DNA from: Terribacillus sp. DMT04
Lineage (GTDB): Bacteria; Bacillota; Bacilli; Bacillales; Amphibacillaceae
NCBI RefSeq assembly: GCF_019056395.1
Contig: NZ_CP077639.1
Location: 2,792,001-2,856,000, forward strand
Direction of reading: 5' to 3'
Length of the DNA stretch: 64,000 nucleotides
Part shown: positions 356 through 40,428 of the stretch, one piece after another
Position numbering within the stretch: the first letter of the stretch is position 1
Layout of the letters: every line of letters starts with the position of its first letter
The notes under the pieces: generated by a model
Seen by the model: only the letters and a program-made list of their open reading frames with translations
What the model was told of the DNA's origin: nothing
Database searches by the model: none
Translations under genes and position numbers: made by a program

Positions 356-2005
356 TTATAACCTCCTAGTCTTATTTATGGAACGGAGCATCAGAACATG
401 CTTGATAAATAAAATCAGCCACAATCCAAAGAAAATGAATGTAAGGATAAATCCAACAAACAGCAGCCATAGCGTATGATGTAGAATCCCTTGAATACCT
501 GTGTATACAGATCCAGCAGTCAACGCGAGAAGCAGCACCGTATAGAAGAAATAAAACTGGTGCAGCAATTGATTCTTCTGCTTATCCCGTTCCCACCCCC
601 GCTGCTTTTCTCCGTCCGTCAGCCAGTCGACAACGGCTCTTGGCATCGATAAAAATGGACGGAGGGAATTAGTGAGAATACCTGTGTAAATCGATTGATG
701 CCGTTTTGATCCTCGCATCCAGCGCAGAATAACCGGCTTTCCCCATTCTACAAGATCAGCTTGAGGATGTATGGCGGCAACTAGACCAATCGCTAAGGAG
801 ACCGCTCTGCCTAGGAATGCAAAATCGGCCGGCAATTGAATCGGCTGTTCCTTCACAATCGCTTGCAACTCTTCCATCAGCTGCAGAAAAGACTCCGTAT
901 CTCCAATATCAAGCTGTCCGCCTTTGTACAAATCCACTGTTTTGCGAATAATTCGTTTTACTTTGTATGTATCAGCTGATGGAAGCAAGAACTCCAATTT
1001 GTACAGCGCTTGAACAACCGCATCATAGTCATCAAGCACAATTCCTTGAATTGCTTCTCGTAAATAGTCTGTATCAGAAGACTTGATTTCTCCTACCATG
1101 CCGAAATCAAGCAGTACAATCGTTCCGTCAGGCTGTATCATAATGTTACCCGCATGAGGATCTGCATGAAAAGTGCCGCTGTTTAAGAATTGATCTGAAA
1201 AGAAAGCAAATAACTTCTGCGCAACTTGTTCACGTGATATCTTTTGGGCATCCAAATAGTCCGTATCTGTTATTTTCCGTCCTTCCACCCAATCCATAAC
1301 TAATACTCTTCCTGTACAAAACTCCGGATAGTATGTAGGAACGTTGATATCCGAATTATCTTGCAGTCTCTTTTTAAAATAATTGGCATGCTCTAATTCT
1401 TTCCGAAAATCCAACTCCCTGCTGATTATTGTGACCACTTCTGTGTAGAGCGCCTTCATATCCGACTTCTTGCCAATACTTGTTAACTTGCGAAGCAGGA
1501 AGAAAACGATACGCAATGCTTTAAAGTCTTGGTGAAAGATCTCTCTTACATTATGACGCTGTACTTTAACAGCTATTTTTTTGCCATTCTTTAAATAAGC
1601 TTCGTATACTTCTCCAATAGAGGCTGATGCAACAGCATGCGGATTGAGATGCTGGATTTCCAATTCATAACGGCTGCCCAGTTCCTTTCGTAATATAGCT
1701 TCGGAATATGTAAATGGTGTTGCTTTTACTCGGTCGACTAGTCCTTCCATCTCCCGAATGAAAACCTTCGGCAGCAAATCGGCACGCGAGCTCAGGAACT
1801 GACCGAGCTTAACGAGTAATCCTCCCAATTTTTCCGCATTCTTTCGATATTCTCTTGCCTGTTTCGTAAGTAATGCTTCCCATTCCTGTTTGTCTTGTTC
1901 ATCCCACACCCGGCTGTGCAGCAGGTAAAATTTATAAATCTGAACCATAAAACGAATGACCATCCATACGATAGTCAAAATACGTCGGGTGGATCTGACA
2001 CGCAT
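356..2005 (-). CDS. ABC1/UbiB-family atypical kinase
   Basis: A 549-residue UbiB/ADCK-type protein-kinase-like protein. Visible hallmarks are the KxGQ-type motif (KLGQFLSSR, about residues 66-74), the alanine/serine-rich nucleotide loop (VASASIGEVYEA), the invariant lysine strand (KIAVKVQR), and the catalytic/metal motifs HADPHAGN and LLDFGMVG near residues 280-305. Two transmembrane helices close the C-terminus (about 490-545), as in membrane-anchored UbiB proteins. The start is an ATG preceded by AGAGGTG. In ubiquinone makers UbiB supports quinone synthesis. Bacilli use menaquinone, so its job here is probably lipid- or quinone-related ATPase activity but is undefined. It is followed directly by the phasin-like gene. 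Confidence 0.9.
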   Translation of the reverse strand: MRVRSTRRILTIVWMVIRFMVQIYKFYLLHSRVWDEQDKQEWEALLTKQAREYRKNAEKLGGLLVKLGQFLSSRADLLPKVFIREMEGLVDRVKATPFTYSEAILRKELGSRYELEIQHLNPHAVASASIGEVYEAYLKNGKKIAVKVQRHNVREIFHQDFKALRIVFFLLRKLTSIGKKSDMKALYTEVVTIISRELDFRKELEHANYFKKRLQDNSDINVPTYYPEFCTGRVLVMDWVEGRKITDTDYLDAQKISREQVAQKLFAFFSDQFLNSGTFHADPHAGNIMIQPDGTIVLLDFGMVGEIKSSDTDYLREAIQGIVLDDYDAVVQALYKLEFLLPSADTYKVKRIIRKTVDLYKGGQLDIGDTESFLQLMEELQAIVKEQPIQLPADFAFLGRAVSLAIGLVAAIHPQADLVEWGKPVILRWMRGSKRHQSIYTGILTNSLRPFLSMPRAVVDWLTDGEKQRGWERDKQKNQLLHQFYFFYTVLLLALTAGSVYTGIQGILHHTLWLLFVGFILTFIFFGLWLILFIKHVLMLRSINKTRRL

Positions 2006-8335: not shown

Positions 8336-9547
8336 TTATTTATTTGTCAGTGCTTGCTCCAGTGTTTCAATGTTATGATTCATAAGACTGAAATAGTCTT
8401 CCCCATCATTCACTTCTTCTTCGGTAATTGTCTCCAGATTATGAATACGCAACACATCCGCTTCAATCTCATCTTGTACAATCGTCGCTACTTTCGGCGA
8501 TACATTTTGCTCAAACAAAACGTAATTCAGCTTGTTTTCTTCAGCTGTATGAATGATATTCTCTAGTTCTTGCTGAGAAGGTTCATTGGTAGGAGACAAA
8601 CCAGTGATGGCAATCTGTTCAATACCATATCTGTCTTCCCAGTATCCGTAAGCAGCATGAGAAACAATAATTTTCTTATTCTCCTTGCCTTCAACAGTTT
8701 GCTGGAACTTCTGATCAAGTTCGTCCAATTTTTCTGCTACTTCTTTATAGTTCTCTTCGTAAGCAGCTTTGTTGTCGGAATCCAACTCGACAAGTGTATC
8801 TTTTATATTTTCGGCCATTTGTTTAGCACGCTCTGGATCAAGCCAATAATGCGGGTCCATGCTGCCGTGATCGTGATGGTGTGCTTCTTCTGCTGCACCT
8901 TCATCGCTGTGATCATGTTCTTCTTCCGCTGCCTCATCTCCATGGCTATGGTTATGTTCTTCCTCTGCAGCTGCCTCACCTTCATGGCTGTGGTCGTGTT
9001 CTTCCTCTGCTGCTGTCTCACCTTCATGGCTGTGGTCGTGCTCTTCCTCTGCAGCTGCCTCGCCTTCATGGCTATGGTCGTGTTCTTCCTCTGCAGCTGC
9101 CTCACCTTCATGGCTGTGGTCGTGTTCTTCCTCTGCAGCTGCCTCACCTTCATGGCTGTGGTCGTGTTCTTCACCAAATGGCAATAAGTTAATATCTCCT
9201 GCCAATTGCTTAATGGTCACATCTTCATCACCAATTGCATCAGCTATTGTTCCAGCATACGTTTCCAGCTCATCACTGGAATAAAGAAATGCATTTGCTT
9301 TTGCGATGTCAACAATCTGATTGGATGTTGGTTCAAAGCTGTGTGCATCACTTCCCGGTGGAAGCACAGACTCAACATCTACTGAATCGCCGCCGATTTG
9401 CTCCGTAAAATACTGAATCGGATAAATAGTTGTGTAAATCTTCATCTTACCGTCTTCTGTGCTGTTTTGACTGCCGCCGTCCGAACAAGCTGCAAGCAAA
9501 ACAAGCAGGAGAGCGGTACTTATAGCAAATAATGATTTCTTGAACAT
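8336..9547 (-). CDS. znuA: zinc ABC transporter substrate-binding lipoprotein with long His-rich repeat loop
   Basis: A 403-residue ZnuA/AdcA-type cluster A-I binding protein. It has a lipoprotein signal with lipobox LLAAC (Cys21). Zinc ligands are visible around SDAHSFEP (His69), 'DPHYWLDP' and 'SHAAYGYW'. The charged loop between the first two ligands is hugely expanded at residues 127-228, with five near-perfect 14-residue units of the type EHDHSHEGEAAAEE followed by two degenerate ones and HHHDHG. Such loops gather zinc for the pocket. GGGAGG precedes the ATG. A strong Zur operator lies directly upstream, so expression should rise in zinc shortage. No permease or ATPase genes (znuBC) are adjacent; they must be elsewhere. 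Confidence 0.93.
   Translation of the reverse strand: MFKKSLFAISTALLLVLLAACSDGGSQNSTEDGKMKIYTTIYPIQYFTEQIGGDSVDVESVLPPGSDAHSFEPTSNQIVDIAKANAFLYSSDELETYAGTIADAIGDEDVTIKQLAGDINLLPFGEEHDHSHEGEAAAEEEHDHSHEGEAAAEEEHDHSHEGEAAAEEEHDHSHEGETAAEEEHDHSHEGEAAAEEEHNHSHGDEAAEEEHDHSDEGAAEEAHHHDHGSMDPHYWLDPERAKQMAENIKDTLVELDSDNKAAYEENYKEVAEKLDELDQKFQQTVEGKENKKIIVSHAAYGYWEDRYGIEQIAITGLSPTNEPSQQELENIIHTAEENKLNYVLFEQNVSPKVATIVQDEIEADVLRIHNLETITEEEVNDGEDYFSLMNHNIETLEQALTNK
8864..9169 (-). repeat. 42-bp in-frame tandem repeat inside znuA
   Basis: This stretch encodes seven His/Glu-rich units of 13-14 residues. The first five are nearly identical at DNA level with a 42-bp period, then two diverged 39-bp units follow. 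Unit identity and the in-frame period point to expansion by slippage or recombination, so copy number may vary between strains. Confidence 0.9.
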
Positions 9548-38695: not shown

Positions 38696-38712
38696 TATAC
38701 GCCTCCTTGAAA

Positions 38713-39015
38713 TTAGAGAGTAAAGTCAAACTTCTCTGCTTCTTTATCTTTTTTCCATGCTTTATACATGTAATAAAGAGCAGCCAAAGCAGCCAAACCA
38801 ATCAGCGCTGGCAGGTTGGAAAGCGAGATACAAACCCCAATTCCAATTACGACACCCCAGCCAATCTTGGCGCCAACAGCATCAGTCATAACGAACCTTC
38901 TCAATCCGTAATAACCAACAGCCACACTAATCGCCAATACAAGCAGCGACCCAAGATTCGCCAACAGCACAGCCACCGCAACAACCGCCCCAATAATCAA
39001 CAACACCTTCTTCAT
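38713..39015 (-). CDS. LiaI-like (Lmo0954-type) small membrane protein
   Basis: A 100-residue protein with three or four hydrophobic helices ('KKVLLIIGAVVAVAVLLANL', 'LVLAISVAVGYYGLRRF', 'GWGVVIGIGVCISLS', 'LIGLAALAALYYMYKAW') and a charged C-terminus. It matches the Lmo0954/LiaI group that heads LiaR-controlled operons and anchors LiaH at the membrane. ATG at 39015 is preferred (GGAG 10 bases upstream), though the adjoining TTG at 39018 is possible. A palindrome resembling a LiaR site lies 77 bp upstream. Confidence 0.8.
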   Translation of the reverse strand: MKKVLLIIGAVVAVAVLLANLGSLLVLAISVAVGYYGLRRFVMTDAVGAKIGWGVVIGIGVCISLSNLPALIGLAALAALYYMYKAWKKDKEAEKFDFTL

Positions 39016-39091
39016 CAACCAACAACTCCTTTCATACCCCTAGTCTACCTTTATCCTCAACGCCACATAACGACCTGGAGAGGTAAGTTAG

Positions 39092-39109
39092 ATAAGACTT
39101 TGGTCTTAT
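39092..39109. promoter_or_regulatory. candidate LiaR operator
   Basis: A perfect palindrome ATAAGACTTTGGTCTTAT (7-base arms, 4-base centre) lies 77 bp upstream of the first gene of the lia operon. Spacing and the GAC/GTC half-sites fit the LiaR/VraR/CesR class of boxes as I recall them. No confident -35/-10 pair could be assigned downstream. Confidence 0.5.
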
Positions 39110-39114
39110 GAAAG

Positions 39115-39651
39115 GCGGAAAAAGCCGGTTAGGAACGGAGAAGTAAGGGAGAAAGCCCGAAGGAAGGTGCTTTTCCTTCCGCAGGGATTTATCCCTTACG
39201 GCGCAGTTCCTGGCTTTTGGAGCTAGACATCAAGAAAAGCGGAAAAGACCGTTCAGAAACGAAGCGGTAAGCAAGGGAGCCCGGAGTGGGCGCCATTCCC
39301 ACGCAGGGATTCATTGCTTACAGCGCAGTTTCTGGTCTTTGGAGCTAGACATAAAGAAAAGCGGAAAAGACCGTTCAGAAACGAAGCGGTAAGCAAGGGA
39401 GCCCGGAGTGGGCGCCATTCCCACGCAGGGATTCATTGCTTACAGCGCAGTTTCTGGTCTTTGGAGCTAGACATAAAGAAAAGCGGAAAAGACCGTTCAG
39501 AAACGAAGCGGTAAGCAAGGGAGCCCGGAGTGGGCGCCATTCCCACGCAGGGATTCATTGCTTACAGCGCAGTTTCTGGTCTTTGGAGCTAGACATCAAG
39601 AAAGGCGGAAAAAGCCGGTTAGGAACGGAGAAGTAAGGGAGAAAGCCCGAA
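39115..39651. repeat. tandem array of about 122-bp structured repeats
   Basis: Units start at 39115 (124 bp, diverged), 39239, 39361 and 39483 (each 122 bp, nearly identical) and 39605 (truncated after 47 bp, of the diverged type). Each full unit folds into a long hairpin, for example AAAGACC (39244-39250) with GGTCTTT (39334-39340), then nested AGAAAC/GTTTCT, GTAAGCAA/TTGCTTAC and GTGGG/CCCAC. In the diverged unit the stems are AAAAGCC/GGCTTTT, AGGAAC/GTTCCT, GTAAGGGA/TCCCTTAC and GGAAGG/CCTTCC, so both sides of the stems changed together. ORFs inside the units repeat every 122 bp and are not credible genes. Confidence 0.9.
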
Positions 39652-39653
39652 CT

Positions 39654-39698
39654 ACAAAAAAACATCCATCCGCTTATAAAATAAACGAATGAATGTTT
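39654..39698 (-). terminator. terminator of the zinc-ribbon/acyltransferase operon
   Basis: On the minus strand AAACATTCATTCG pairs with CGGATGGATGTTT using two G-U pairs, followed by seven T. The G-U pairs form only in the minus-strand RNA, so it is directional. Confidence 0.8.
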
Positions 39699-39714
39699 CA
39701 TACGAAAAAAGACA

Positions 39715-40428
39715 CTAAATATGAAATTTACGCTTCATCTTTTCTTTCCATTTCTCTGGTACTGTGTAAGATATAATCAGTAAGACGGCTCCTATTATAA
39801 TGGACAGGATCACATCTCCGGCTGATTGAATAAATACATCTTCTGCATCTAAATAGATCCGCAAGATAAACTCTATTCCGATACAAAGGATGAGCAGGGA
39901 AAAAATAATATAACCACTTTGACGCAGCCAGCTTACATTTACTCTGTAAATAGCGATATTTGCTAGAAACAAGAGTACAGTCAGCACTACTATCGGAATG
40001 GCTATTTCGACGGACCAGCCCGCATATCCATCAATGCCATCGAAACCAATAAGCCCTATGCTAGCTGAAGCAATCAAGACTGTCAGCTTGTTTCGCATAC
40101 GTTTTACATAACCGAAGAATACATGCAGATAACACCAGCTCATCAGTACAGATAAACTGCTGTATAAAGACCACGTTAGCTCACCGTTCAAAGATAGGTC
40201 GACAATTATTGGGACAAGAAAGCCTAGAATCAATAGAATACAGAGAACGCGATATACACTGCGGATGAAGAAATGCAATAAGTTCTCATACAAACTATAA
40301 TAAGCAGGAAAACCATTCGCATCTGACAGTTCTTCGTCACTGAGCACTTTTGGTATATATGTATAACATAGCGGACAAGGTATTTGATCCTTTTCTACAC
40401 TAACACCGCATTTCGGACAGTAGGCCAT
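39715..40428 (-). CDS. zinc-ribbon membrane protein (DUF6320-like)
   Basis: A 237-residue protein with an N-terminal zinc ribbon (Cys4, Cys7, Cys18, Cys21 in MAYCPKCGV and PCPLC) and about six membrane helices between residues 48 and 222, ending in a basic tail (KWKEKMKRKFHI). It starts within a TAATG overlap with the acyltransferase gene upstream, so the two are translated together. I believe this pair corresponds to the DUF6320 protein found next to alcohol-acetyltransferase-like proteins in Firmicutes. Function is unknown; it may present a membrane substrate to the acyltransferase. Confidence 0.72.
   Translation of the reverse strand: MAYCPKCGVSVEKDQIPCPLCYTYIPKVLSDEELSDANGFPAYYSLYENLLHFFIRSVYRVLCILLILGFLVPIIVDLSLNGELTWSLYSSLSVLMSWCYLHVFFGYVKRMRNKLTVLIASASIGLIGFDGIDGYAGWSVEIAIPIVVLTVLLFLANIAIYRVNVSWLRQSGYIIFSLLILCIGIEFILRIYLDAEDVFIQSAGDVILSIIIGAVLLIISYTVPEKWKEKMKRKFHI

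Follow-up and report, generated by a model that had tools for sequence, protein, structure and literature searches.

The window analyzed here is a stretch of 64,000 nt from Terribacillus sp. DMT04. Next to the lia operon it contains a tandem array of hairpin-forming units in which the same stems are written with different bases. The question raised by this locus is whether the fold rather than the sequence has been maintained, and if so, whether it is maintained as RNA, as a structure in DNA or as a mobile repeat. The features of the locus are as follows, where R1 is a covariance model built on 21 units from this same genome.

38713–39018, minus strand: leading gene of the lia operon, encoding a membrane protein of the lmo0954 family (NCBIfam NF052277, 107.5 bits)
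39093–39108, no strand: inverted repeat of the type TAAGAC-4 nt-GTCTTA (6-4-6), read from the sequence
39110–39233, plus strand: unit 1, diverged, 124 nt; R1 match of 121.2 bits
39234–39355, plus strand: unit 2, 122 nt; R1 match of 127.6 bits
39356–39477, plus strand: unit 3, 122 nt; same sequence as unit 2
39478–39599, plus strand: unit 4, 122 nt; 99% identity to unit 2
39600–39651, plus strand: partial unit 5, 52 nt, then cut; matches the start of unit 1 exactly
39659–39699, minus strand: terminator-like hairpin of the right-hand minus-strand gene
39715–40428, minus strand: 237-aa ORF without NCBIfam match; its 3' end faces the array

The initial annotation had described three near-identical 122-bp units, a diverged 124-bp unit and a truncated fifth, and these are found at positions 39110–39651. 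The end given there for the array (39651) is exact, but the start (39115) is 5 nt inside unit 1. The array begins 1 nt past the inverted repeat at positions 39093–39108, which we take to be a candidate LiaR site. Both flanking genes (38713–39018 and 39715–40428) are antisense to the array. The operon was recognized with NCBIfam, where the lmo0954 family and LiaF models score above their cut-offs; the LiaH, LiaS and response-regulator models are best or near-best hits that score below theirs. A coding origin of the array was considered and rejected, as the 66-aa ORFs within it are by-products of the repeat. A 169-aa ORF ending at position 39111 overlaps the antisense lia-side gene and so was not counted as a sense neighbor of the array. 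The window also contains another tandem repeat at positions 8896–9172 (42 bp, 6.7 copies), whose period is a multiple of three.

Fold and compensatory base changes

Each full unit of the window array folds into one long nested hairpin, as had been proposed, with energies of -52.5 and -49.7 kcal/mol (z of -4.3 and -5.0), and none of 200 shuffled sequences is as stable. The opposite strand folds less stably (-44.2 and -42.1 kcal/mol, z of -4.0 and -4.3). A comparison of unit 1 with units 2–4 over the 35 consensus pairs shows 22 pairs that are the same and 13 that differ. Nine of the differing pairs are changed on both sides and are still paired, two are changed on one side, and two are unpaired in one of the two sequences. 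The earlier count of at least five compensated pairs was conservative.

An alignment made with R1 comprises 137 units of the genus from 59 loci, and 130 of these units are distinct. Standard pairing is present in 94.9% of the pair cells of the distinct units, compared with only 28–46% when the partner is slid by 1–3 columns. The hairpin is not a chance structure, because there are 31 matches in the genome of Terribacillus sp. DMT04 itself and because pairing falls off in this way when the columns are displaced. Two-sided changes are found at 26 of the 35 pairs (601 cells), a level reached by none of 500 shuffles. Kinship of the rows inflates counts of two-sided changes, and a tree-aware null was therefore used, in which independent columns were simulated 40 times on a FastTree tree, the numbers of changes being matched. 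Against this null, 16 of the 35 structure pairs covary at E<0.05, as calculated with our own script rather than R-scape and on a model-made alignment. The top 15 column pairs in this test are all structure pairs; the three significant column pairs outside the structure each adjoin structure pairs.

These data bear on the simplest alternative, that a chance hairpin was duplicated in tandem neutrally, with no constraint on it. The number of units does vary among species, the last unit is often cut, and whole units have been lost at two sites in one genome of the genus (G008). At five sites outside the rRNA (rrn) operons, mean unit identity has fallen to 76–80%, yet 94.3–96.3% of pair cells are paired and 15–21 of the 35 pairs show a two-sided change. 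Together with the tree-aware covariation, this makes neutral duplication, a reading already disfavored, the least probable of those considered here.

Structural signature and strand

From base to tip, the unit consists of a 3-bp base, a GNA/GNA internal loop, a 7-bp helix, a bulge of 4 nt on the 5' side, a 6-bp helix, a second GNA/GNA loop, and then an apical stem of variable form. Unit length is 115–120 nt plus a linker, and the unit ends in the alignment are GAAAAGCG and AGCTAGACA. In the two 3x3 internal loops each side is GNA in 118 and 113 of the 130 distinct units, the middle base being free, and the 5'-side bulge is filled in all 130. The outer GNA/GNA loop is also present in 59 of 70 anchored units (75 tried) from G015, a genome outside the genus. 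The form of these loops suggests sheared G-A pairs. A second apical domain (ACTGAGATAAAGGAAACAC ... GTTGACTTATCGTAG type) is found on the same basal stem and is common to several genera (loci L079–L082, L094 and L102).

The maintained loops are also informative about mutation. Template switching at quasi-palindromes during replication would match the two arms of a hairpin without selection for function, and would produce paired two-sided changes at any site, transcribed or not. The same process would erase internal loops and the bulge, yet these are maintained at the frequencies given above; it also predicts no excess of G-U pairs. Because the internal loops are kept, correction of this type is disfavored and is considered very improbable. 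The kept loops and the covariation of 16 of the 35 pairs agree with the view, put forward in the initial annotation, that the fold and not the sequence has been preserved. The repeat is almost certainly a real, conserved nucleic acid structure.

The strand on which the structure operates can be approached by comparing G-U with A-C cells, read in the direction of the element. The ratio is 212:88 overall. By class of copy it is 10:0 in rrn copies, 64:18 behind stop codons, 100:57 where an antisense gene lies at the 5' side, and 37:13 in others. Counted by pair column, 15 favor G-U and 9 favor A-C, with 11 ties; the cells are not independent, and the outer seven-pair helix has no excess of G-U over A-C; the G-U bias therefore gives moderate support only.

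Copies in the 23S–5S rRNA spacer

Thirty full-length sense R1 matches are present in the Terribacillus sp. DMT04 genome, which make up six arrays, of 23 units in all, and seven single copies. The other R1 matches listed for this genome consist of shadows on the opposite strand, together with three partial units and one weak place. All seven single copies begin directly behind 23S rRNA. For example, at locus L021 the end of the LSU model is position 1496, and the element and 5S rRNA begin at 1501 and 1749, respectively. The seven spacer copies (L021–L026 and L029) are of two subtypes, 112 and 118 nt, which are located in different operons.

A scan of named genomes for a 23S end followed by an element start gave 30 stretches, of which 26, some of them short or cut, are from Bacillales, and four are chance finds in unrelated bacteria. 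The Bacillales stretches are from Neobacillus, Cytobacillus kochii, Heyndrickxia coagulans 36D1, Filibacter tadaridae, Aquibacillus kalidii, Sporosarcina koreensis, Anoxybacillus tepidamans and several Bacillus. Eight of the named spacer elements were folded, with L094, L095 and L102 clipped by the end pattern used; z is -3.1 or lower in seven of the eight and -1.7 in L089 (Aquibacillus). Several of them display the same nested plan with different bases and a different apex.

Long hairpins are well known in rRNA precursors as 23S processing stems and intervening sequences, and are possible substrates of RNase III-type enzymes. The spacer copies differ from these in that they are local hairpins behind the mature 23S end, and in that the same element recurs behind protein-coding genes.

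Copies at stop codons

Gene neighbors were called by a longest-ORF script for the 50 arrays of the genus outside rrn operons. A sense gene lies upstream of 22 arrays, and an antisense gene is at the 5' side of 28; the window array is among the 28, to which it was reassigned by hand after the caller had taken the 169-aa ORF as a sense neighbor (-2 nt). Fourteen of the 22 sense-gene arrays begin -1 to +4 nt from the stop codon, and these represent three orthologous sites; sites within a genus are not independent. The antisense neighbors are positioned differently, with the gene start mostly 75–142 nt away. A similar association is found in G015, where 27 of 60 clusters have a sense gene upstream and 19 of the 27 are within 10 nt of its stop. 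By contrast, of 36 stop codons that face the 3' end of the element only two are as near (Fisher p 5e-8). Some stop codons in this genome are partly formed by the first bases of the element.

Two of the sites are particularly well defined. Behind dacA and rocA the element is found 0–5 nt past the stop codon in all ten genomes of the genus, in one to about five units. The exceptions are G008, which has only a cut unit at rocA, and G001, where the start at dacA is degenerate. The genes are intact at both sites. The dacA product is, from its sequence, a putative D-Ala-D-Ala carboxypeptidase. Residues 1–515 of the rocA product (1-pyrroline-5-carboxylate dehydrogenase) align to PDB entries 3qan and 3rjl over the full length, and the stop codon is therefore native. 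The automatic search detects a sense-strand terminator in eight of the 14 stop-codon arrays, and by eye a terminator-like hairpin follows in most cases. A fourth stop-codon site is found in G001, G003 and G007 and is missing from the arrays of Terribacillus sp. DMT04.

Copies situated behind 23S rRNA, or between a stop codon and a terminator, should be transcribed in the orientation in which the element is read here. RNA is probably the working form, at least in the rrn and stop-codon copies. At the 3' end of a transcript the hairpin could then serve as a module for processing or for blocking exonucleases, which would mark or protect the end of the preceding RNA, i.e., the 23S precursor, the dacA mRNA or the rocA mRNA. 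A role in 3'-end processing or stability is a serious possibility, to which we give slightly less than even weight. Several observations count against it. More than half of the non-rrn arrays of the genus (28 of 50) have the antisense gene at the 5' side and few have terminators on their own strand; G008 has only cut units at lia and rocA; and the reverse strand folds too. The arrays with antisense neighbors also keep the fold, and a purely 3'-end RNA role does not explain them.

The lia site across the genus

The array had been reported to lie directly upstream of the lia candidate operator, and this arrangement is general in the genus: the start of the element next to the inverted repeat AAGACTTTGGTC is at an identical position in all ten species. 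The smallest array is the single cut unit of G008 and the largest has about six units; in most genomes the array ends in a cut unit. The lia-site units from nine genomes (18 distinct) have a mean identity of 80%, with 94.4% of pair cells paired and two-sided changes at 16 of the 35 pairs, so that at lia itself the fold has been maintained. In the G008 lia locus (L299), the cut unit is followed by another repeat with a GGAGACTCCTGCGGGAACAGC-type start.

A scan of positions 38700–39715 on both strands found no promoter-like site, which is a weak negative since any lia promoter was also missed. Among the 28 arrays with an antisense 5' neighbor, a terminator on the strand of the element was found in only three and one on the opposite strand in 21. 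With the fold kept and neither promoter nor terminator found for a plus-strand transcript, either there is an undetected transcript or part of the constraint is on DNA. The kept fold at lia without these transcript signals is the main unexplained point. That the lia array itself acts as RNA is considered somewhat doubtful. It is read here as a copy in a second niche, directed away from the lia promoter and placed between a terminator and the operator.

This point is one argument for an element that works at the level of DNA, either as a cruciform or as duplex bound by a protein (next to the lia operator as an array, or as a spacer or insulator), with RNA folding as a by-product. The lia array and 27 further arrays of the genus keep the fold without an evident sense transcript, both strands fold, and the array abuts the lia inverted repeat in every species. 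Such an element does not account for the excess of G-U over A-C on one strand, strongest in the rrn and stop-codon copies, or for the asymmetric bulge present in all distinct units; furthermore, the copies in the 23S–5S spacer sit within a transcribed unit. A DNA-level element is considered improbable.

Distribution and mobility

R1 matches are found in all ten genomes of the genus and in 24 of 41 relatives. At the level of the family, 103 of 159 genomes and 31 of 46 genera have matches. Fuller R1 searches gave 95 matches in G015, 104 in G040, 61 in G033, 19 in Neobacillus sp. OS1-33 and one in H. coagulans 36D1, counts that may include opposite-strand matches; the spacer scan shows that H. 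coagulans 36D1 has more copies than R1 detects. G015 (L194–L249) has a subfamily that is longer, at about 160 nt, and more uniform, with a common conserved 3' tail. The 59 clusters listed for this genome also lean by strand along the chromosome, with 22 plus to nine minus in the first three eighths and nine plus to 18 minus in the next four eighths, a lean that is not separated from gene orientation.

Numbers of this size raise the possibility of a non-autonomous mobile element (MITE- or REP-like), in which a transposase supplied in trans would use the hairpin as its substrate. The fold would be kept because only copies that fold can move, and the copies behind 23S rRNA and stop codons would be tolerated insertions. 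Besides copy number, the uniform long subfamily of G015 with its common 3' tail and the patchy presence in the family are in agreement with this, and one site occupied in G015 is empty in its congener G166, where the left flank is conserved up to the insertion. The uniform subfamily and this empty site indicate that spread has happened outside the genus. As to the terminal inverted repeats and target duplications of MITEs, the base stem has 3 bp only, and at this single empty site the right flank is not alignable, so that no target duplication is readable.

Within the genus the evidence is of a different kind. In 105 of 137 cases the unit most closely related to a given unit is found at its own site, in three there is a tie, and in 29 it is at another site; no two units from different sites exceed about 93% identity; the family therefore looks static here. 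At three sites, lia, dacA and rocA, the element begins at the same boundary in all ten species. The Y1_Tnp transposase (PF01797), which is the type searched for, is not found in eight of the ten genomes, including that of Terribacillus sp. DMT04; G006 has one and G008 has seven. A suggestion of the initial annotation, a REP/MITE moved by a REP-type tyrosine transposase, is therefore rejected for this genus. No match to the element was found in plasmids or phages, and an origin from either was likewise discarded. Overall, the mobile-element explanation is rather unlikely; the large copy numbers and the one empty site may point to a mobile origin elsewhere.

Relation to known repeats and structured RNAs

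A search of the window with Rfam 15 gave no match at the gathering score; up to E=10 there are three miRNA models, far below threshold. No description of this repeat was found among the titles and abstracts listed in searches of the open-access literature, and one may exist elsewhere.

REP/BIME elements, which are associated with RAYT transposases, are in some cases located in 3' UTRs near stop codons. The present element resembles them as a dispersed, intergenic hairpin repeat found partly near stop codons. REPs are palindromes of 20–40 bp with a GTAG or CGTC tag at one end (PMC3733652). The present element differs in its length of 115–120 nt plus linker and in having no GTAG or CGTC end tag. 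It differs further in its GNA/GNA loops, in its rRNA-spacer copies and in the lack of Y1_Tnp from most genomes of the genus.

Stem-loop repeat families have been surveyed by Cozzuto et al. 2008 (PMC2267715). That survey lists Bcr1 of B. anthracis (167 bp, 31 copies) and Bhal-1 of B. halodurans (74 bp, 36 copies), and set rRNA-precursor clusters aside. Compared by description only, these are, like the present element, structured and mostly intergenic repeats of Bacillus relatives, and Bhal-1, compared in the same manner, could be a relative.

Bacillaceae-1 RNA (RF01690) is a structured Bacillales repeat with dozens of copies in some genomes (PMC2864571). Its model has 67 positions and two loop hairpins, unlike the element described here, and RF01690 has no match in the window or in any of the ten genomes of the genus. 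Bacillaceae-1 is a different element and a companion. Among the 46 copies listed of 57 in G033, six are nested in an R1 match (e.g., L075, positions 1098–1163, minus strand), nine are within 10 nt of one and eight are within 300 nt; all 23 are on the same strand as the R1 match. By eye, one copy in G028 (L327, approximately positions 1501–1568) is apparently inside a 5S-rRNA-like sequence, and copies at L321 and L322 are inside other hairpin-like repeats. The repeat that hosts the copy at L321 resembles the GGAGACTCCTGCGGGAACAGC-type repeat of L299. Bacillaceae-1 may be a small repeat that inserts into structured loops.

Structured bacterial repeats are thus already known. A fold common to the 23S–5S spacer and to arrays that abut stop codons was not found in the literature searched.

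Interpretation and significance

The initial annotation offered an undescribed structured RNA as one reading of the array. The covariation, the kept loops, the copies in rRNA spacers and at stop codons, and the lack of an Rfam family at threshold all agree with it. The best reading of the data is a structured element of RNA type, so far undescribed, that is found at transcript 3' ends and in the rRNA spacer; confidence in it falls a little short of even, and its biochemical role is inferred. The arrays would grow and shrink through tandem duplication, and an ancient spread of the family as a non-autonomous repeat is possible. A bolder proposal is that in Bacillales one hairpin module is a common 3'-end signal for rRNA and mRNA, recognized in both by one protein or RNase and copied and amplified between rRNA operons and mRNA 3' ends; we regard this as rather unlikely.

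The element, which has no Rfam match, is present in tens of copies in some genomes and in rRNA operons of several Bacillales genera, and within the genus, genes such as dacA and rocA invariably have it at their 3' ends. It supplies many naturally occurring compensatory changes, and is an example of repeats whose boundaries stay fixed even as their bases and unit number turn over. Should it prove to be a signal for processing or stability, rRNA maturation and mRNA decay would be linked through it in Bacillales.
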